From Lachnospiraceae bacterium (GTDB taxonomy: Bacteria; Bacillota; Clostridia; Lachnospirales; Lachnospiraceae), in the NCBI GenBank assembly GCA_017474455.1, contig JAFVHP010000044.1:227864-291863 (forward strand): a DNA stretch of 64,000 nucleotides. The letters are read 5' to 3'. The notes beneath the pieces are model-generated. The model saw only the letters and a list, made by a program, of their open reading frames with translations, was not told the DNA's origin and ran no database searches. How positions within the stretch are numbered: position 1 is the first letter of the stretch; each line of letters opens with the position of its first letter. Made by a program: the position numbers and the translations under genes. Of this stretch, positions 30,552 to 40,689 are shown in pieces.

Positions 30552-32185
30552 TTATTTCCCGTTCGCTGCCTTCCAGGCGTCGAGCTGATCCTGGAATGCC
30601 GCCAGGTAGACGTCGAGGTCAGCCGTGGCAAGAGCGGCCAGATAGTTGTCATAGACTTCGTCTGTATAGCAGCCGTTCGTGATGGTCCTCAGATACTGGT
30701 CGTTGACCGAGTACTGCATGGCAACGACATCGGAAAGGTCGCCGAGGTTGATCGCGAAGCCAAGGTAAGGGGATACAGTGCTGCCAGCAGGTTGTCCATG
30801 GATACCTGCCTGAAATCAGCTGTATTGCCTTCCCAGGGAAGCGCGTTGAAATAGTTGCCGTACATGAAATCAACAGAGTGATAAGTCACATTCGCGGCGG
30901 TAACGTTATCCGGATAAGCGGCGACGCCGTCCTTTACTACATAATCAGTATCTTCAAGGCCCCATACGATGAGGTTCTCAAGCCTGGGATCCGTATAAAG
31001 GGCGTTCAGCCAGCGGGCTGCCGCTTCCGGCTCTTCCGCTGTGATCGGGACTGCAAGGCCGAAACGGCTGACGGCTGAGGAACCGACAACATTCTTCTGC
31101 AGTTCGACGCAGGTGATCGGATAGCCGGTCGCTTCCATTTTCGCGGTCTCGACACCGATCTCGCTGGTCTGGATAGTAGCGAAGGTAACGCCGGTCTTCA
31201 TGATCGTATCAACATGGTCGCTGGTCGTAGGCGCATCTTTGTAGATCCAGCCTTTGTCATACCAGCCGCGGACTCTTTCCAGTCCGACGCGGTAGGGCTC
31301 AAATTCGGGCAGGGAGGAGATCACACCGTTCTCATCCGTGTAAACGACCTGGTATGTATCGCCGAGCCAGTCGAAGGAAATACTGTCGGTGAATTCATCG
31401 CCGTTAAAGATGATACCCAGCTGGTAAGGGGTCTCATTACCGTCGCCGAGAGGGGTCACGTCAGTCTTCTCATCGACTTCCGCCATGATCTCTTCAAATT
31501 CGGACCACTTTGTGAGGGCTTTTGCCTTCTCCAGGAGGCCGAGCTCCTCAAGGATGTCTGTACGCATGATCAGGTACGCGCTGCTGGCATAGTTCCTGAA
31601 GGGCGGCACGCCGTAGATCCTGCCGTTAACGGAATCGGCATAGATGTAATCACCCATCTCCTCAAGGAGTCCGGGCGCTTCTTCCGCGAGCAGATCCGTC
31701 AGGTCTGTCAGCTGGCCATTCGCATACATTCCGTTAAAGCTGGTGGAACCGAAGCCAAGGCTGCAGATGTCGACCTGTTCGCCGCTGGCGAGGGCAAGAC
31801 CGACCTGGGTCGCGTAATCGCCCATTCCTACGAAGAGGATGTCGGCGTGTACACCGATGGTGCTTTCGGTGATCTCATTCATTGCCGCGACAACATGGTC
31901 CGCATGTTCCGCAACGCCGCGGATATCTGACAGGATGACCTTGATCTCCGTGATATCCCCGTCCCATTCAGCCGCTGCTTCCGCAGTTTCAGTCACTTCT
32001 TCCACTGCTTCAGCTGCTGCTTCCGTTACTTCCTCTGCCGCCTCCTCAACGCTTTCCGCTGCTGCTTCTGCCGCTTCCGCGGGTGCCGCGGGTGCTGCCG
32101 CGGTGCCGCCTGCTGCCGCGCAGCCTGCGAAGAGCGAAGCTGTGATGGCACAACTTACGATCGCTGCTAAAACTCTCTTTTTCAC
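30552..32185 (-). pseudogene. Solute-binding lipoprotein gene with a frameshift near its 3' end
   Basis: A large extracellular solute-binding lipoprotein (lipobox FAGC, acidic Ala/Glu/Thr linker), paralogous to the divergent gene at 32465. The frame stays open to GNTADFRQVSMDNLLA and then departs from the paralogue near 30780. In the next frame the expected tail resumes (STVSPYLGFAINLGDLSDV, ending DAWKAANGK) and stops at 30552. Inserting one base (GCAGC to GGCAGC) restores a full protein of about 545 residues. So this is either a recent one-base deletion, with loss of the last roughly 76 residues, or a sequencing error. Confidence 0.8.
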
Positions 32186-32282
32186 ATCTTCCTCCTTTCG
32201 GATGCTTCCCGGGGCTATGCAGCTGCCGGGAGCAGGACATTATCTGATAGGTGCAGTATAAAAAACGATACTTCTATATTCT

Positions 32283-32328: not shown

Positions 32329-32464
32329 CATACGGAATGCTTTGTGCATGGATCAGCAATTATTCCATGCGCGCAGTGTCATTTTCAAGCAATGTTTCCC
32401 TATGTTTTTCCGTCTAGAATCAGAGACATCAAATGATCTTCACAAGCTTGAAAGGGGGCTAAAC

Positions 32465-34087
32465 GTGAAAAAAAGAATTCTTGCAACCATTCTTTCCATT
32501 GGAATGCTGACGTCCCTGCTGGCAGGGTGTGCGGCAGGTGCCGCTCCGGCTGCTGCGCCGGCTGCCCCGGCAGAAACAGAGGAGGCGGCAGCGCCCGAAG
32601 AGACCGCGGCACCCGCGGAAGAGGCTGAAGCTGTGGAAGCAGCAGAGCCTGCGGAAACTGCGGAAGCGTTCGATGAAGTTACCGATATCGAAGTGATCCT
32701 GATCGACTTCAAGGGCATCCCGACCGAACAGGGCGACCGTATCGTTGAAGAAATGAACAAGATCACCGAAAAGACCGCCGGCGTCCGCGCGCACGTCACT
32801 TTTATCGGCCCCGGCGACTATCCGACACAGGTCGGTCTGATGCTCTCCGGCGGCGAACCGCTCGACATCATCGGCCTCGGCATCGGCTCCTCCGCTTTCG
32901 CGGCGCTGATCGCCAACAACCAGCTGATGGATATTACGGACCTGCTTGACGAATACGCACCCGAGACTCTTGCCTTCCTCGGCGACTACATCGACGCCGA
33001 TTCCGTCAACGGCAGGATCTACGGCGTTCCGCCCTACAGGAACTACGCAAGCTCTTTCTACGCAGTTATGAGAAAGGACGTCCTGGACGAACTCGGCCTG
33101 ACCGATAAGGCGATGTCTATGACTTCCTTCGACGACCTCGCGGCGATCTACGCGGAAGTAGCCGAGAAGACAGACCTTACGCCCGTCGGCGGCTCCAAGC
33201 AGATCTTCACCACCGGCTACGGCAACATCTATCCCGGCGGAAGCTTTGAAGACGCCGTGATCTTCGACAACCTCGGCGACAGCTACGGCATCATCTTTAC
33301 CGACGGCGAAGGCAACGTTTCCTTCCGTCCTGAAGAAGAAGCGCAGATAAAGATGTATGAAATGATCCGCGACTGGTATGACGCAGGATATGTTTATAAA
33401 GATTCCGCGATCACCGACGACCATCCCGATACCCTGACAAAAGCCGGTATCCTTTTCAGTTCCCTGCAGATCAGCGAAATGGGCATCGAAAGCGCGAAGC
33501 AGGAAGCAACGGGCTTCGAAGTCGTCTGCCCCGAGATCGCAAAAGACCTCGTTTACTCCGCCAGCGTCAACAAGTTCGGCCTTGCCGTTCCCGTTACCAG
33601 CCAGGAGCCCGAAGCCGCCATCCGCTGGATCAATGCGTACTACACAGATCCCGCCCTCGCGAACCTCTTCACATGGGGTGTTGAAGGCACCGACTATGTC
33701 GTCGAAGACGGCGTTGCCCGCTTCCCTGACGGCGTAGACGTAAACTCTGTCGGTTTCCACAACTACGACTTCATGTACGGCAACTATTTCGAGGTCCTTC
33801 CCTGGTCCGGCAACACCGCTGATTTCCGTCAGCAGGCCATGGCATTCCTTGAAGGCGCGGATGTATCTCCTTACCTCGGCTTCGCCGCAAGCCAGGCAGG
33901 CATGGACAACATCATCGCTGCCCTGAACTCCGTCAACGACCAGTACAGGCCTTCCATCGCCTGCGGTATCTATACGGATGATGATTACAGCAAGTATGTC
34001 ACCGCGCTGAAGACTGCCGGCGCTGAAGAATACGTCGCTTCCTATCAGGAACAGCTTTCCGCATGGATGGAAGCCACCGGTAAATAA
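32465..34087 (+). CDS. Solute-binding lipoprotein of the C-glycoside block
   Basis: A 540-residue exported lipoprotein: KK-R N-region, hydrophobic core, lipobox LLAGC, then an Ala/Glu/Pro-rich linker. The mature domain is a large family 1 binding protein (DIIGLGIGSSAFAALIANNQ; VPPYRNYASSFYAVMRKDVL; WINAYYTDPALANLF). The start is a GTG at 32465, preceded by AAGGGGG at a good distance; no ATG fits. Leads the operon with the deglycosidase genes and lies divergent from a paralogue. No permease gene is nearby, so it must work with a transporter encoded elsewhere. Confidence 0.88.
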   Translation: MKKRILATILSIGMLTSLLAGCAAGAAPAAAPAAPAETEEAAAPEETAAPAEEAEAVEAAEPAETAEAFDEVTDIEVILIDFKGIPTEQGDRIVEEMNKITEKTAGVRAHVTFIGPGDYPTQVGLMLSGGEPLDIIGLGIGSSAFAALIANNQLMDITDLLDEYAPETLAFLGDYIDADSVNGRIYGVPPYRNYASSFYAVMRKDVLDELGLTDKAMSMTSFDDLAAIYAEVAEKTDLTPVGGSKQIFTTGYGNIYPGGSFEDAVIFDNLGDSYGIIFTDGEGNVSFRPEEEAQIKMYEMIRDWYDAGYVYKDSAITDDHPDTLTKAGILFSSLQISEMGIESAKQEATGFEVVCPEIAKDLVYSASVNKFGLAVPVTSQEPEAAIRWINAYYTDPALANLFTWGVEGTDYVVEDGVARFPDGVDVNSVGFHNYDFMYGNYFEVLPWSGNTADFRQQAMAFLEGADVSPYLGFAASQAGMDNIIAALNSVNDQYRPSIACGIYTDDDYSKYVTALKTAGAEEYVASYQEQLSAWMEATGK

Positions 34088-34116
34088 TACCTGCAAATAC
34101 AGAATGCAATATGAAT

Positions 34117-34142
34117 CCCGGAGCGTTTCACCGCGCTCCGGG
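34117..34142 (+). promoter_or_regulatory. Hairpin after the binding-protein gene, no T-run
   Basis: CCCGGAGCG (34117-34125) pairs with CGCTCCGGG (34134-34142) over 9 bp, 30 bases past the binding-protein stop, and no T-run follows. It probably lowers read-through or protects the upstream message, so that the binding protein is made in excess over the enzymes. A second operon in this window has the same arrangement. Confidence 0.55.
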
Positions 34143-34176
34143 GTGATCCGGATCATGATAAAGGAGGAATGATCAC

Positions 34177-34623
34177 ATGTATGAAGATTTTCTCGTAAGA
34201 ACAGACAGTCTCGAAAACGTCGTTGAGAACGGCGAGACCACAGGATTTAAGTTTGCTGTCAGGAACGCGAACTACAGAGGGATCTTCCTTTCCCTCGTCA
34301 CCAGCTTTTATGTAGAGATGGACGGTGAGGAATTCCCGATCGACGACATCAGATTCGCCGTAAACGGCGCCGCGCCCAGGAGCATGGAAGAGCTCAAGAA
34401 GGCTGTTTTTGAGCACTGGGATATGCAGGACGAAGCTTACCTTTACGTAAAGAAGCCCGGCGGACTCGAAAAGGGCACACATCGGCTCGGCTATATGCCC
34501 GGCACGATCGACGGCTACGGCTACAAGGCCACGGACGCGGAATGGGTAGACAACCCGCCCCAGCCCGGCAAAGGCGGCGGCAAGACCTATCATGTCTGCA
34601 ATTTCACGCTCGAGCTCAATTGA
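34177..34623 (+). CDS. C-glycoside deglycosidase beta subunit (DgpB/DfgB/CarB-like), copy 1
   Basis: A 148-residue protein matching the small beta subunit (DUF6379) of bacterial C-glycoside deglycosidases: MYEDFLVRTDSLENVVENGE, then GFKFAVRNANYRGIFLSLVT, VEMDGEEFPIDDIRFAVNG, and YHVCNFTLELN at the end. In known enzymes it forms a complex with the TIM-barrel alpha subunit and helps cleave the C-C bond of 3''-oxo-C-glycosides. It is followed 18 bp later by an alpha-subunit gene, as expected. AAAGGAGG upstream. Soluble, no signal peptide. Substrate unknown. Confidence 0.82.
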   Translation: MYEDFLVRTDSLENVVENGETTGFKFAVRNANYRGIFLSLVTSFYVEMDGEEFPIDDIRFAVNGAAPRSMEELKKAVFEHWDMQDEAYLYVKKPGGLEKGTHRLGYMPGTIDGYGYKATDAEWVDNPPQPGKGGGKTYHVCNFTLELN

Positions 34624-34641
34624 AAGGAGGCTTGAATCACT

Positions 34642-35739
34642 ATGATCAAAAGAGGCGTTTCCCTTTACAGCTATCAGCAGGCGGAATTCTTCCACCAGAT
34701 GACATGGAAGGACGAGCTGCGCGAAGTTGCCACCAACCTTAACGGCGCGGACGGTATCGAGATCATCAGCGAGACGACAGTACCCCGCTATCCCATGCCG
34801 CCGGAATCCTTCTACTTTGAATGGAATAACGAGATGGCCAGGTACGGCCTCAAAGCCGTTACCTACGACGCGTTCATGGATACCCTCCAGTTCCGCGACC
34901 ACGTCATGACCATCGCGGAATGCGCCGAGAGATTAAAATACGATCTGCGCATCGCGCATAAGATGGGCTTTGAAAACATGCGCCTGATCAAGGGCGTTCC
35001 GATCCAGGCAGTGGAACTTGCCCTTCCCCTCGCGGAAGAGCTGAACGTAAGGATGACCAGCGAAGTCCACTCCCCGCAGGCCCTTCACGCTGTTCCCGGA
35101 ACCTGGGGCGAGAGCATCGGCAGGGACATCGCGTTCATCGAAAAGACCGGCACGAAGCACTACGGACTGCAGCCTGACTTCGGTATCTTCCAGATAGCTC
35201 CCGAAAAGCCGCTCGTAGCTTATCAGCTCCGCGTCAGCGCAGGCCTTTCCAAGGAAGAATCCTTCAAAGTCGCGGATGAGCTGCTTGCCATCTACGATGA
35301 GATCGGCTACAAGGACAAGGAACTTCTGTACGCAAAGGCAGAACCCGTCGCTCCTTCCCTCTTCGTCAAGCGTCCCAGCCCGATGGGCGGCGGCCTGCGC
35401 TGCGCTGCCGATCATCTGTTCAGCGGCCCTACGGCGGATATCCTGGAACTCTACAACGTCATGCAGTACATCTTCTGCATCCACGGCAAGTTCTATGATA
35501 TGACCGAAGTCGAAGGCGAGCCCGGACACTTCGAGGACAAGGGCATCCAGTACAAGGAAGCCATTGCCATCCTCAACGCCTGCAGCTACGACGGCTACAT
35601 CAACTCCGAATTCGAAGGCCAGCGTTCCCAGCAGGATATGGGTTATGAAGGCCTCGTGGACGAAGTCGAGCAGGTCCGCAGACACCACGAGATGATGGAC
35701 CGCTTCATCAACGACCATTCCAAGGATATGACGATCTGA
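34642..35739 (+). CDS. C-glycoside deglycosidase alpha subunit (DgpC/DfgA-like TIM barrel), copy 1
   Basis: A 365-residue sugar-phosphate isomerase/epimerase-type TIM barrel. The start MIKRGVSLYSYQQAEFFHQM matches deglycosidase alpha subunits. The four metal ligands of the family are all present: E141 (TSEVHSPQ), D179 (LQPDFGIF), H281 (FCIHGKFYDM) and E323 (INSEFEGQR). With a divalent metal, typically Mn2+, and the beta subunit it should eliminate the aglycone from a 3''-keto glycoside. About 70 residues longer than copy 2, with the extra in 185-255. A separate oxidoreductase that makes the 3''-keto group is not seen in this window. Confidence 0.82.
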   Translation: MIKRGVSLYSYQQAEFFHQMTWKDELREVATNLNGADGIEIISETTVPRYPMPPESFYFEWNNEMARYGLKAVTYDAFMDTLQFRDHVMTIAECAERLKYDLRIAHKMGFENMRLIKGVPIQAVELALPLAEELNVRMTSEVHSPQALHAVPGTWGESIGRDIAFIEKTGTKHYGLQPDFGIFQIAPEKPLVAYQLRVSAGLSKEESFKVADELLAIYDEIGYKDKELLYAKAEPVAPSLFVKRPSPMGGGLRCAADHLFSGPTADILELYNVMQYIFCIHGKFYDMTEVEGEPGHFEDKGIQYKEAIAILNACSYDGYINSEFEGQRSQQDMGYEGLVDEVEQVRRHHEMMDRFINDHSKDMTI

Positions 35740-35813
35740 TAATCAACGACCGGAAAGGCAGAAGGCGATCTCTTCTGCCTTTCCTGACTGCTGCATAGAT
35801 GGAGATAGAATTC

Positions 35814-36677
35814 ATGGAAAAGAAAATCAAACGCGGCGTTTCGATCTACAGCTACTCCGGTGAATACGGCCGCACAATGGATCTTGAAGACTGTTTCAAG
35901 GACATGCACGACATGGGCGCCACCGGCATCGAGATCCTGGCCAATTCCCATATCGACAGCTATCCTGTGCTTTCCGACGAATACCTGTCAAAATGGAAAT
36001 CCCTCTGCGAAACGTATCAGGTCGAGCCCGCAGAATACGGCCACTGGATCGATACCAGGCTCTACAAGAACCGCAATATGACCGGCGAGGAAGCCCGCCG
36101 CGTCCTCATCAACGACTTCCAGATCGCGAACGCCCTGGGCTTCCATGTCCTCCGCACGAAGATGGGCGTCATCAACGGCGAACTTGCCCCGTTCCCGGAA
36201 TGGAAGGAAGTGATCTTGAGCGTATTGGATGAAGCCGCGAAATACGACGTCATCATGTGCCCCGAGATCCATCTGCCTTCCCTTCTGCAGGACCAGTTCG
36301 TACTGGACTATGTGGATTTCATCAATATGACCGGCACCAAAAACTTCGGCCTCAACATCGACCTCAGCGTTTTCCAGAACCGCTTCAACGTGGAAGGCGT
36401 CGTGTCCTACAACCAGGATACCAGGCACAACGAGCCGGAAGACATCATCCCGCTCCTGCCTTATGTAAAATGCATCCACGCCAAGTTCAACAGGATGGAC
36501 GACGACTTCAACGAGCTGACCATTCCTTATCCCGAGATCATCCGGGTCCTTATGGACAACGGCTACGAAGGATACCTCATCAGCGAATACGAAGGCATAA
36601 ACAAGAACGTTCCCGGCTATGTTTCCCACGAGCTGCGGAAACAGCATGTCATGATGAAGCGCATCCTCGGATACTGA
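35814..36677 (+). CDS. C-glycoside deglycosidase alpha subunit-like TIM barrel, copy 2
   Basis: A 287-residue barrel starting MEKKIKRGVSIYSYSGEYGR. Metal ligands are conserved: E151 (MCPEIHLPS), D183 (LNIDLSVF), H222 (KCIHAKFNRM) and E258 (LISEYEGIN). It is paralogous to copy 1 and lacks the insert before H222. The ATG at 35814 is preferred over one 15 bases earlier because GGAG lies 8 bases before it. It is followed by its own beta-subunit gene, so a second complex, perhaps with a different aglycone or sugar preference, is likely. Confidence 0.8.
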   Translation: MEKKIKRGVSIYSYSGEYGRTMDLEDCFKDMHDMGATGIEILANSHIDSYPVLSDEYLSKWKSLCETYQVEPAEYGHWIDTRLYKNRNMTGEEARRVLINDFQIANALGFHVLRTKMGVINGELAPFPEWKEVILSVLDEAAKYDVIMCPEIHLPSLLQDQFVLDYVDFINMTGTKNFGLNIDLSVFQNRFNVEGVVSYNQDTRHNEPEDIIPLLPYVKCIHAKFNRMDDDFNELTIPYPEIIRVLMDNGYEGYLISEYEGINKNVPGYVSHELRKQHVMMKRILGY

Positions 36678-36733
36678 TGCCCTGCTGCCCGCTCATCCTG
36701 ATACCGGCCATATACATAAAGGAGAATGTGAAA

Positions 36734-37165
36734 ATGCTTGAAGCAGATGTTATTCAGTACAGAGGCTTTCATAATATCGTGGAAGACGGAAAGATCACGG
36801 GCTTCCAGGTCTGCGTCCGCTCCGATTACTACCGCGGCGTCTGGCTCAGCCAGCTGCGTCCCGGCCGCGTCATCGTCGACGGCGAACTCTTCCCCTGGGA
36901 CACCATTATCTGGAACATAAACGGCAAAGACTATACTACCGCGGAAATGGCGGAAAACTCGACGGATTTCTGGCATGTGGACAAACCTGCTATACTTAAG
37001 ATAAAGAAGGACGGCGGACTTTCCCAGGGCTTCCACGACGTGACCGTACGGTTTTTCGCGAGCTGTTCCTATATGCCGCCCAGCTACGATACTTTTGACG
37101 ACAACACGGAATTTACCAGCTTCAACGGCGGTACATATACAAGGAAAAACATGTGTATCGTCTGA
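36734..37165 (+). CDS. C-glycoside deglycosidase beta subunit-like, copy 2
   Basis: A 143-residue protein of the same beta-subunit family: MLEADVIQYRGFHNIVEDGK, ITGFQVCVRSDYYRGVWLSQ, VIVDGELFPWDTIIWNINGK, ending FNGGTYTRKNMCIV. AAAGGAG lies 9 bases before the ATG. Sequence identity to copy 1 is low apart from the pattern, so the two subunits probably pair specifically with their own barrel. Lies 15 bp upstream of the AraC-GH39 gene. Confidence 0.78.
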   Translation: MLEADVIQYRGFHNIVEDGKITGFQVCVRSDYYRGVWLSQLRPGRVIVDGELFPWDTIIWNINGKDYTTAEMAENSTDFWHVDKPAILKIKKDGGLSQGFHDVTVRFFASCSYMPPSYDTFDDNTEFTSFNGGTYTRKNMCIV

Positions 37166-37180
37166 TAAAGAGACAAAAAC

Positions 37181-39748
37181 ATGGCAGACAACGCGGCATA
37201 CCATCTTGAACTTGCGGAAGCTCCGGACAGCGCGCCTGTGCTCGCGCCGGAACTGACAATCCTGTACGCTGCCGCGGGAAGTACCGGGCTCCTTGTCAAC
37301 GCCCATACCGTGAAGCTGTCGCAGTATGACCTTATCAGCATCGATCCCGGTTCCGAATACTCACTGCATTCAACGCAGGATGCTATCCTATGCATCCTGC
37401 GTTTTTCCGGCCCTTTTCTGGAAAAAGCGATGAACGGCGCTTCCGGACGCTTCATCCTGAACAGCGCGGAACAGCGCAGCGCTTCCTACGGAAAGATCCG
37501 GCATCTTTTTATGCGGCTGCTGACCTACGACAGCAGCCGGCACCTTTCTTCCAGCGGAGAGGAAGCGCTGGTACTGGAGATCTTTTCCGAACTCGCCGAC
37601 CGCTTCTTTGTCCCCGATGAGGGAGACATACGGCTCGCGCCCGAAGACAGCAGCCGCATGCGGCTGATCATGCAGTATATCTCGTCGCACCTGTATTCCG
37701 GCTGCAGTATCACGGAATTATCGGAGAAGCTCTATCTTTCCCAACCGGCGCTGTCCAGGTTCTTCAAAAAGAAGACCGGGCTCCTCTTCTCCGATTATGT
37801 CAACAACCTGAAAATGGCGGAAGCGGCGCGCTCCATCGTCTCGACGGACGTCCCCTTCTCACAGATCTCCAACGAGCTGGGCTTCTCCGGCACATCCTCC
37901 TTCTACCATGCATTTTCGCGCAAGTACGGCATGACGCCTGCGGAGTACAGGTCACTGAACCACCCGCAACCGGACGTGGCCGGCGGGGAAGCCGACGGCA
38001 TGGACGCGGCCGGCAGAAATACGACACTCCTTCGGGAAAGGCTGCGTGAGACCATCCAATTACCGGAAGATACGGAAGTTCTGACCGTTCGCGAAAGCAT
38101 CGATATCCGACAGCGCCGGGGCGAAGCCCTGGATCCAGGACGCCTTGTCAGTGCGGGCGCTTTCGGCTCCATGCTGATGGTCAACGTCCAGCATCATATC
38201 CTGATGCTGAAGGAAGAACTGGGGATCACCTACGTACGCCTGTGGAATCCTTTTTCCACGAGACTGAAGATAACCGACGGCACGACCGCCGCCCACTACA
38301 ATTTTGACCTGGTGGACCAGGTCCTGGACTTCCTCGTGCGGTCCGGACTGAAACCCTTTATCGACTATGGCACCCGTGAAGACAGGGCGCTGCGGACCCG
38401 GAGCGAAACGATCTTCATCGAGCACGAAAATGTTATTTTTGCCACAAAAGAGCTATGGGAAACAGCGCTGCAGTATTTTATCCAGCACATCATCCTCCGC
38501 TATGGCGAAGAAGAAGTGTCCACCTGGGGATTTGAACTGTTCAATACCTCGTACCTGTCGGACGCGTCGCCACTTCCCTACCGAGGGGACGATCAGTTTC
38601 CCGACGCGTACCGGTCGTTCCATCGTATCGTGAAGTCCTCCCTGCCCGACAATACGCGGTGCGGCCCCGGATTCATCAGCTCCTACCCGGCCATCGGCGA
38701 CGGTGTGACCGCGACCAGGTTCTCGCAGGGAACCGCTCCCGGTTCCGACGGACAGGCTGAAGGCGGAACTGCTGCCGGGAAGCATACTGAGGACGGAAAG
38801 GCTGCCGAAGGACAAGTCCCGGACGAAACGGTTTCCGGGGAACCGACTTCCATAGAACAGGCCCCGGACAGACAGACTCTGGATACTTTCCTGCGCTCCT
38901 GCGCTGACAGCGGCATCGTCCCGGATTTTATCTCCATCGTATTCCACTGCTACGACCAGAAGGCCGATCCATTCAGCGCCGGACAGGAAGTCGTCATGCT
39001 GCAGTCCTTAAAACGCCTGCTGTCCCAGTACGCCATGTCCAGTACCAGGATCATCGTTCCGGAATGGTACAGCAGCGTTTCCAGCCGGAATTACCTGAAC
39101 GACAGCTGTTACCGGGCGGTCTACTTTATCCGCAAATTCGCCGAGGCCGCAGGCATCGCCAATATGATGAGCGCCGCGATCGCTTCGGACTGGGTCAGCA
39201 ACTATTTCGACAGCCACAGCGTATCCAACGGCGGCAACGGCCTTTTGACCAGGACAGCCATGAAGAAGCCCCTCCTCGTCGCCCTGAAGCTCCTGTTCAA
39301 AATGCCGCCCGTTATCATCTCCAAAAGCGCATACCATCTGATGACCTGCAACGAACGCGGAACTTACTACCTGCTCTGCAGCAATTTCCCTATCGACAAG
39401 GCTTCCGAATATGAGCTGAACGAGATCATTCCCGATCCGGCAGATGCCTCTGTCTTCATCGAATCGCACCCCGGTCTGCAGCTGACCGTCACCCTGCGCG
39501 GCATCCTCTCTGAGGGCAAATACTCCGTACGGATGGAAAGCATCTCCGAGCAGGAAGGCACCATCCTGTCCGGCTGGAAGCAGTTCGGTTACGAAAGCGA
39601 GCTGGAAGAATACGAGATCCGCTACATCCGCGACAGCATCTATCCCCGCATGAACACACGCAGACTGAACGTCAGCAACCAATCCATGTCGCTGACCGTG
39701 ACACTGCCCCCGTTCGGGGCTGCGCTGTTTACGATAAGGAAGGTGTAG
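37181..39748 (+). CDS. AraC-family regulator fused to a GH39-like domain
   Basis: An 855-residue fusion. Residues 20-150 are a sensor/cupin-like region; 160-260 hold the AraC helix-turn-helices (ITELSEKLYLSQPALSRFFK, FSQISNELGFSGTSSFYHAF); 300-855 resemble GH39 xylosidases (YVRLWNPFST, DLVDQVLDFLVRSGLKPFID, STWGFELFN). The GH39 acid/base motif FExWNEP reads FELFNTS here, so the glutamate is Thr456, while the nucleophile-like E628 (VPEWYSS) remains. A low-complexity Gly/Glu/Ala insert covers 514-566. It is probably a sugar or glycoside sensor controlling this operon and not an active hydrolase. Weak ribosome site (AAAGAG). Confidence 0.85.
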   Translation: MADNAAYHLELAEAPDSAPVLAPELTILYAAAGSTGLLVNAHTVKLSQYDLISIDPGSEYSLHSTQDAILCILRFSGPFLEKAMNGASGRFILNSAEQRSASYGKIRHLFMRLLTYDSSRHLSSSGEEALVLEIFSELADRFFVPDEGDIRLAPEDSSRMRLIMQYISSHLYSGCSITELSEKLYLSQPALSRFFKKKTGLLFSDYVNNLKMAEAARSIVSTDVPFSQISNELGFSGTSSFYHAFSRKYGMTPAEYRSLNHPQPDVAGGEADGMDAAGRNTTLLRERLRETIQLPEDTEVLTVRESIDIRQRRGEALDPGRLVSAGAFGSMLMVNVQHHILMLKEELGITYVRLWNPFSTRLKITDGTTAAHYNFDLVDQVLDFLVRSGLKPFIDYGTREDRALRTRSETIFIEHENVIFATKELWETALQYFIQHIILRYGEEEVSTWGFELFNTSYLSDASPLPYRGDDQFPDAYRSFHRIVKSSLPDNTRCGPGFISSYPAIGDGVTATRFSQGTAPGSDGQAEGGTAAGKHTEDGKAAEGQVPDETVSGEPTSIEQAPDRQTLDTFLRSCADSGIVPDFISIVFHCYDQKADPFSAGQEVVMLQSLKRLLSQYAMSSTRIIVPEWYSSVSSRNYLNDSCYRAVYFIRKFAEAAGIANMMSAAIASDWVSNYFDSHSVSNGGNGLLTRTAMKKPLLVALKLLFKMPPVIISKSAYHLMTCNERGTYYLLCSNFPIDKASEYELNEIIPDPADASVFIESHPGLQLTVTLRGILSEGKYSVRMESISEQEGTILSGWKQFGYESELEEYEIRYIRDSIYPRMNTRRLNVSNQSMSLTVTLPPFGAALFTIRKV

Positions 39749-39877: not shown

Positions 39878-40573
39878 TTATGGATTACAGATCTTGCAAG
39901 GTCTGTAATATGTAGCAGGCTCACTGCGGCCCCCGTAGAAGAAAACCTTATTATGATTAGCCATTTTTGCAACACTCGAACAGAAAGGATAATGGAATAT
40001 CCCGGAATTCTTATTTCCAATATATGTTACCGTTCCCTGCGCTGCAGCCTGTGCCCGAAGCATTTCCTGCTGTGCCTGAAGAGCCGCTGCCTGTTGCGCC
40101 TGTAATGCTGCAGCATACTGTTGCTGTGCCTGCAATGCTGCGGCGTACTGTTGCTGTGCCTGCAACGCTGCGGCCTGTTGCTGGGCCTGCAATGCTGCAG
40201 CCTGCTGCGCCTGCAACGCTGCGGCCTGCTGCTGCGCCTGGAGAGCCGCGGCCTGTTGTGCCTGTAATGCTGCGGCCTGCTGCTGCGCCAGCAGATTTGT
40301 CTGGAGGGTGATGAGATCATTTGCGACGATCTGTGCCACATTGGAAGGTTGCTGCAAAAGCTGCGGCAAAATAGCCTGCACACGCAGAAATGCCGCATTC
40401 TGATCCAATCCATAATTCATATAAAGGGCCATTGCCTGCATAACCGCTTCTTCAACGGTTATTTCAGCAGCATGTACAACAACCGGGCCCCCTGCCACTG
40501 CATTTGCCTGTGTCGGCATAAAAAGAAAAAGTGCAAGTATTATGGCAACTAAAAAGCCTGCTTTTCTCTTCAT
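39878..40573 (-). CDS. Secreted Gln/Ala-repeat protein with C-terminal Ada-like Cys domain
   Basis: A 231-residue exported protein: signal peptide (MKRKAGFLVAIILALFLFMP, then TQANA), a short helical region, eight copies of AAALQAQ(Q/QQ/QQY) over residues about 100-169 (predicted long helix or coiled coil), then about 45 residues resembling the Ada metal-binding domain (YIGNKNSGIFHYPFC, ending RPCKICNP). The first Cys of Ada is His here, leaving one His and three Cys as probable zinc ligands. ATG at 40573 follows GAGGAG. Function unknown; similar tails occur on extracellular nucleases and repeat proteins. Confidence 0.8.
   Translation of the reverse strand: MKRKAGFLVAIILALFLFMPTQANAVAGGPVVVHAAEITVEEAVMQAMALYMNYGLDQNAAFLRVQAILPQLLQQPSNVAQIVANDLITLQTNLLAQQQAAALQAQQAAALQAQQQAAALQAQQAAALQAQQQAAALQAQQQYAAALQAQQQYAAALQAQQAAALQAQQEMLRAQAAAQGTVTYIGNKNSGIFHYPFCSSVAKMANHNKVFFYGGRSEPATYYRPCKICNP
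40067..40276. repeat. In-gene tandem repeat encoding AAALQAQ units
   Basis: Eight units of 24, 27 or 30 bp (CTGCAATGCTGCAG-type) encode AAALQAQQ, AAALQAQQQ and AAALQAQQQY. Units are very alike at DNA level, so copy number probably varies between strains by slippage without changing frame. Confidence 0.8.
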
Positions 40574-40689
40574 ACTATTTCTCCTCACTAAAGGTAAGTC
40601 TTGAGTTAATTAATAATAATTCTATATCTGATTTGGCATATGCTCAACCCTGCAGTTACCTGTGGGATTGTCAGGCGACAAATACAAAA

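Follow-up and report, generated by a model that had tools for sequence, protein, structure and literature searches.

Within a stretch of 64,000 nucleotides from a Lachnospiraceae bacterium (GenBank assembly GCA_017474455.1, contig JAFVHP010000044.1, positions 227,864 to 291,863 of the forward strand; here called the window), an operon at 34177-37165 consists of four same-strand (+) open reading frames in the order β1-α1-α2-β2, which encode two sets of the subunits known from C-glycoside deglycosidases (CGD). As a whole, this system is best explained by two independent heteromeric metal-dependent β-eliminases of the CGD/CGE (C-glycoside eliminase) type, two of about 33 in this genome, an explanation that we regard as probable. 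Its family assignment, catalytic residues, lid, co-divergence pairing, copy number and nearness of binding-protein genes are read from sequence; activity, a split between substrates, shared permeases and an oxidase acting in trans are its inferred parts. A first-pass annotation of this DNA had already claimed a four-gene β-α-α-β operon with two CGD-type complexes, and the reading frames, matches to the CGDB family and to solved structures, full catalytic sets and a place for both barrels in the CGD tree bear this out. The double operon is a real arrangement but not a unique one, and what is unusual is that a single genome has about 33 pairs, which are both intact and diverse.

Both β subunits match the Pfam family CGDB (PF19906, C-glycoside deglycosidase beta subunit) with 115.6 bits for β1 and 119.2 bits for β2 at a cut-off of 27.6. 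α2 exceeds the cut-off of the Pfam family AP_endonuc_2 and has as its best match in the Protein Data Bank (PDB) 7bvs_A, the α chain of EuCGD, while α1 stays under the curated cut-off of this family and matches solved CGD α chains, best of all 8qvc_A (table 1); NCBIfam gave no above-cut-off names among the CGD genes. In AgCGD2, the metal set is reported to consist of Glu147, Asp179, His269, Lys271 and Glu305, with His149 as the base and Glu307 as a helper (Mori 2021, PMC8563793). The corresponding residues are E141, H143, D179, H281, K283, E323 and E325 in α1 and E156, H158, D188, H227, K229, E263 and E265 in α2 (numbered from the ATG at 35799), i.e. each barrel has not only the intact E-D-H-E metal set noted previously, but also the Lys, the base His and the second Glu. 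These seven site columns read E-H-D-H-K-E-E in α1, α2 and all 34 α domains of the window genome as well as in 77 of 85 α subunits of other loci, with at least one of the seven residues absent from the other eight. For the β subunit, Tyr39 of PuCGE is described as important for the cleavage of C-glycosides and hardly so for that of O-glycosides (PMC10628242, Nat Commun 2023), and its equivalent, mapped by counting along the DgpB chain, is present in β1, β2 and overall in 33 of 33 β domains of the genome.

An α tree of 124 rows, which includes five PDB reference chains and leaves out other-locus α subunits spanning fewer than 240 residues, was calculated by a quick method with SH-aLRT support only and some long branches flagged. 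Both α1 and α2 are found within the tree of the solved CGD α chains, in mutually distant clades: α2 belongs to a starred 22-row clade together with DfgA, and α1 to a starred 21-row clade apart from DgpC. Since both barrels lie inside the CGD tree, the possibility raised in the first-pass annotation that they belong outside the deglycosidase clade falls away. Judged by sequence, both operon enzymes belong to the CGD family as new members, with a function that is predicted.

Among characterized enzymes, α2/β2 is like EuCGD (DfgA-DfgB of Eubacterium cellulosolvens; 7bvs, 7dre, 7exb) in its lidless barrel, catalytic set and clade, with 55% identity of the α and 49% of the β subunits over aligned columns. 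Unlike EuCGD, however, α2-β2 occurs in tandem with a lid-type pair and in an operon without the oxidase gene, and the closest relative of DfgA in the window genome is not α2 but the gene at position 163011 of contig C30 (C30:163011). α1-β1 in turn shares the lid, the catalytic set and the Tyr39 equivalent with PuCGD/PuCGE (DgpB-DgpC of strain PUE; 7bvr, 7drd, 7exz), but is unlike it in that α1 falls outside the DgpC group (17 rows, support 85), as does every other α of the genome. The difference of about 70 residues noticed earlier between the two barrels is real, the lid site comprising 73 aligned residues in α1 (an insert at residues ~190-263) against 10 in α2. As a novelty, this insert had to be dismissed, because the α subunits of PuCGD and AgCGD2 are known to carry a lid of four helices, which EuCGD does not have (Mori et al., PMC8563793), and because the alignment of α1 with DgpC continues through the stretch. 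Six loci of the genome have at least two α domains, and a mixture of lid and lidless forms is found at the window locus only.

An important question is which α works with which β. Over 113 pairs (33 from the window genome and 80 from other loci, leaving out the second α at C41:51133 and one of 81 β subunits of other loci), identity distances between α subunits and between β subunits correlate with r 0.87, a value reached in none of 1000 shuffles, the highest of which gave 0.07. Relative to the other 111 pairs, β1 co-diverges with α1 (r 0.92) and not with α2 (r -0.02), and conversely β2 with α2 (r 0.92) and not with α1 (r -0.07). For 68 of the 113 pairs, the partner α of the nearest β is itself the nearest α, and for 93 it ranks in the top five; β1 itself is closest to the partner of the nearest relative of α1 (C19:169771 and C19:170233), and β2 to that of α2 (locus L108 of genome G704). 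As judged from these distances, β1-α1 and α2-β2 have separate histories. With each β co-diverging only with its adjacent α, two separate complexes are therefore favoured over the mixed complex that had also been considered, be it a hetero-oligomer of two α and two β subunits or an arrangement in which each β serves either α. Such mixed assembly is physically thinkable, as both characterized gut CGDs are reported to be α4-β4 octamers (PMC8563793), and on contig C41 a single β is flanked by two α genes, but co-divergence is confined to neighbouring α-β pairs, α1 and α2 come from distant clades and a strong predicted hairpin separates the two pairs within the operon, all of which makes it a very improbable state of affairs here. 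The C41 locus (G000:C41:49458-52209, L041), where the two lid-type α subunits around the β are 68% identical, represents a natural case of one β with two α subunits in its own right.

The two separate complexes have to be seen against the repertoire of the entire genome (2,624,103 bases in 51 contigs, 96.6% complete, 1.3% contamination), which comprises 33 CGDB (β) domains, all above the cut-off, and 34 CGD α domains at 28 loci, not counting TIM barrels without the catalytic set at C19:100775 and C19:135995 and two weak matches. Four of the products are single-chain fusions, with the order β-α at C19:133439 and α-β at C6:71427, C19:141571 and C26:193016; fusion as such is already known from the solved chain 8qrz, which matches both subunits. 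Our comparison covered about 1,158 genomes in overlapping sub-samples, with the window genome included in the family, order, genus and phylum counts; in the large samples, scoring was limited to at most 11 candidates per genome, and seven genomes were rescored in full. At family level, 34 of 397 genomes had CGDB matches over the cut-off, compared with 15 of 392 in the order sample, 4 of 398 in the phylum sample and 6 of 51 in the genus, where the best sibling had nine and 45 of 50 siblings, many of them incomplete, had none. The genus of genome G067 had CGDB in four of four genomes (14, 2, 3 and 16 copies) and one further family in 5 of 19. First-look candidate counts for genomes with a match in the large samples were at most 17 compared with 37 in the window genome, and the richest other genome sampled had 16 CGDB domains versus 33. 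Contaminant contigs were rejected as a source of the 33 copies in view of the low contamination, the spread over 14 contigs of 6.7-327 kb and the GC content of 0.49-0.56 in the fetched stretches. Catenibacillus decagia resembles the window genome in having several CGD clusters, with six dgpBC clusters and 11 separately located dgpA genes reported (PMC11170127); we found no report of more than six dgpBC clusters per genome in the open-access literature, outside of which most subscription journals lie. In the genus sibling mentioned above, eight of the nine CGD β genes are located within ~46 kb of one contig (G738:C8:57700-107200; L057, L058, L060-L063), a possible CGD island.

How did such a set come about? 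Recent lineage-specific amplification was considered and rejected, since the α genes of the window genome are scattered over many branches of the tree rather than stemming from one recent burst of duplication: the label 'own genome' changes 27 times on the 124-row tree (starred branches enforce 20 of these changes), compared with 30.0 changes on average after shuffling and a number as low in 43 of 500 shuffles. By identity, many of these genes are closest to a gene of another genome: C30:163011 is 84% identical to DfgA and 86% to an α from another genus, C17:34709 has its closest relative (77%) in a sheep metagenome-assembled genome labelled Oscillospiraceae, and that of α2 (76%) is again in another genus. 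The closest relative of α1 is a gene of the same genome (C19:170233, 66%), and some others are close together as well, e.g. C26:191176 and C39:27883 with 77%, which does speak for some amplification. We read the CGD genes as gained from many sources, apparently mainly by horizontal transfer, with a small number of duplications later on; a rich ancestor and subsequent losses could also lie behind this CGD richness. The double-pair layout itself, i.e. β-α(lid)-α(no lid)-β, occurs also at locus L107 in another genus of the same family and at L109 in another family of the same phylum, and a unique gene order was thus discarded. Because the lid-type α subunits of L107 and L109 come from other tree branches than α1, this layout seems to have been assembled more than once. 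Other multi-α loci in the window genome include, besides the α-β-α case on C41, α-β-α-β at C30:17957-20655 and fused-gene mixtures on C6, C19 and C26, and the picture of an exceptional double operon could therefore not be upheld.

In the mechanism we propose, β1-α1 would form the lid-bearing and α2-β2 the lidless EuCGD/DfgAB-type complex. Each α barrel would hold a divalent metal (Mn2+ in solved relatives) by two Glu, one Asp, one His and one Lys, with the β subunit closing the aglycone pocket and supplying the Tyr required for C-glycoside cleavage. A 3-keto-glycoside would first be made by a Gfo/Idh/MocA oxidase encoded elsewhere, whereupon the base His of the α subunit would remove the C2 proton and the aglycone would depart, leaving 2-hydroxy-3-keto-glucal. 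No oxidoreductase gene was found in the operon at 34177-37165, just as the first-pass annotation had stated for the enzyme that has to generate the 3''-keto glycoside, and the search it proposed for Gfo/Idh/MocA proteins elsewhere in the genome yielded 15 matches, 14 of them over the cut-off, which are candidates for a trans-acting oxidase. In strain PUE, by comparison, dgpA is reported to be in the same operon as dgpBC (PMC11170127). Concerning substrates, the two pairs are predicted to serve probably different aglycones or attachment positions, and by analogy to EuCGD α2-β2 would probably act on C6-glycosides. Two aglycone classes are also the likeliest of the readings offered previously, again as a prediction, while two activities in sequence find no support because both α subunits carry the same catalytic set.

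Several points weigh against this overall explanation. Besides physical contact, mirror-tree agreement also reflects the fact that genes lying side by side are inherited together. A preference for C6 or C8 is probably not determined by the lid, as MiCGD, whose α of 39.4 kDa (PMC8563793) has lid-type size, nevertheless mainly takes C6-glycosides, and therefore the substrate of α1-β1 cannot be read from its lid. Of 13 Gfo/Idh/MocA genes (the two weakest of the 15 being left out), none is within 3 kb and three are within 5 kb of any CGD locus. NCBIfam gave no above-cut-off names for ten oxidoreductases, and of four searched against the PDB, DgpA was the best match for one only (C21:34826, 8.4e-27); C17:61051 has DgpA2 as its second match (8.4e-49) behind 3e18_A, C19:6362 is nearer to other oxidoreductases including a sugar 3-ketoreductase, with DgpA far down its match list, and C11:26829 had no PDB match at 1e-20. 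Finally, PuCGE cleaves 3-keto-O-glucosides as well as C-glucosides, and AtOGE with the same fold is O-specific (PMC10628242), which means that O-glycosides could be what these enzymes act on in nature. The pairs would then be 3-keto-O-glycoside eliminases that belong to a general route in which ordinary O-glycosides are broken down by oxidation and elimination, and the large number of paralogues would fit a multitude of substrates. Yet the Tyr important for C-glycosides is kept in all 33 β domains and the CGE-type Glu, where AtOGE has a His (PMC10628242), in all 34 α domains; moreover, oxidized O-glycosides reportedly shed their sugar without an enzyme (PMC12724307) and should therefore have little need for a complex aglycone pocket. 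An O-glycoside route thus seems unlikely to us, and we continue to favour C-glycoside elimination. In other genomes, TIM barrels of 279-300 amino acids near CGD pairs (L107 5003-5839, L112 555-1391 and L106 4538-5437) read H-H-D-H-K-Q-E at the CGD site, with a change from the first Glu to His that recalls AtOGE (PMC10628242); by these residues, O- and C-specific eliminases may stand side by side at these three loci.

Uptake seems to be connected to the same loci. The DUF3502-type binding protein encoded upstream of β1 has 21 strong matches in the genome (one frame-split, two with one stop inside the match), 13 of which, including the frame-split one, are no more than 3 kb away from a CGD locus (p ~1e-8 for random placement, ignoring gene clustering). 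Of 40 permease matches, 38 were compared with the pair beside a CGD locus at C19:131028/131988, and only C19:106120/107516 proved to be a pair of the same kind (58% and 52%), with other matches of at least 100 residues at 33% or below. Many binding proteins may thus share two permease pairs, i.e. about 33 complexes would be fed by exchangeable binding proteins with two permease pairs possibly common to them.

The presence of 33 pairs in a small genome suggests a specialist on C-linked plant glycosides, as a prediction. In its fullest form, this would be a dedicated C-glycoside degrader with about 33 functionally distinct complexes that were gathered largely by horizontal exchange with other gut Clostridia rather than by recent duplication, are each tuned to a different aglycone or attachment position and share 3-oxidases as well as about 21 binding proteins on two permease pairs, a picture that we hold tentatively, as possible rather than probable. 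If true, it would indicate that some gut bacteria make their living from C-glycosides, compounds resistant to ordinary hydrolysis, and show how a single uptake system might serve many substrates. With few CGDs characterized, 33 intact natural pairs in one genome, spanning lid, lidless and fused forms as well as both subunit orders, could also serve directly as a set of enzymes for relating sequence to substrate, in which the window operon would offer adjacent complementary specificities that are cleanly comparable.

Table 1. Features of the CGD operon and its surroundings (positions in the window)
Feature	Position	Strand	Evidence
Lipoprotein-type extracellular solute-binding protein with DUF3502	32465..34087	+	Pfam DUF3502 1.9e-09
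RNA hairpin in the gap between binding-protein gene and β1	34115..34144	+	z -2.62 over 61 nt; 3/200 shuffles as low
CGD β subunit 1, 148 aa	34177..34623	+	CGDB 1.3e-33; AGGAGGA precedes start; Tyr39-β equivalent
CGD α subunit 1, TIM barrel with lid, 365 aa	34642..35739	+	PDB 8qvc_A 1.9e-43
14-bp RNA hairpin without T-run, between the two pairs	35752..35784	+	-23.3 kcal/mol over 63 nt; z -4.06; 1/200 shuffles as low
CGD α subunit 2, lidless EuCGD/DfgA type	35814..36677	+	PDB 7bvs_A 2.2e-101; 292 aa from 35799
CGD β subunit 2, 143 aa, DfgB-like	36734..37165	+	CGDB 9.9e-35; PDB 7bvs_B (DfgB) 1.4e-33; Tyr39-β equivalent
AraC-type regulator with C-terminal GH39-like domain	37181..39748	+	HTH_18 1.7e-18; Glyco_hydro_39 4.1e-21

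At the level of the individual genes, AGGAG-like ribosome sites are found upstream of β1, α1 and β2, and for α2 the ATG at 35814 is the more likely start, because a GGAG precedes only this and not the ATG at 35799. A long frame from a GTG (36257-37165) is a mechanical extension of β2, which starts at 36734, and the probable GTG start of the DUF3502 protein, within the open reading frame 32342-34087, was placed by eye from its signal sequence. No T-run terminator is listed on the + strand at the hairpin upstream of β1, and promoter and terminator scans stayed near the shuffle level (4 versus 4.1 and 8 versus 6.0, respectively); perhaps both hairpins play a role in differential transcript processing. 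The AraC-GH39 protein is probably the local regulator, its family having seven members across the fetched stretches, five of them near CGD genes. Divergent from the operon, another DUF3502-type binding protein on the - strand (30555-32191) is split across two reading frames, either because the gene has decayed or because the assembly is wrong here. Elsewhere in the genome, a further xylose-isomerase-like barrel and a gene of the ThuA family come after the CGD pair of locus L028 (C19:99137-102677), and in the window the - strand at 39878-40588 encodes a protein that is apparently secreted and combines AALQAQQ-type repeats with a C-terminal domain.

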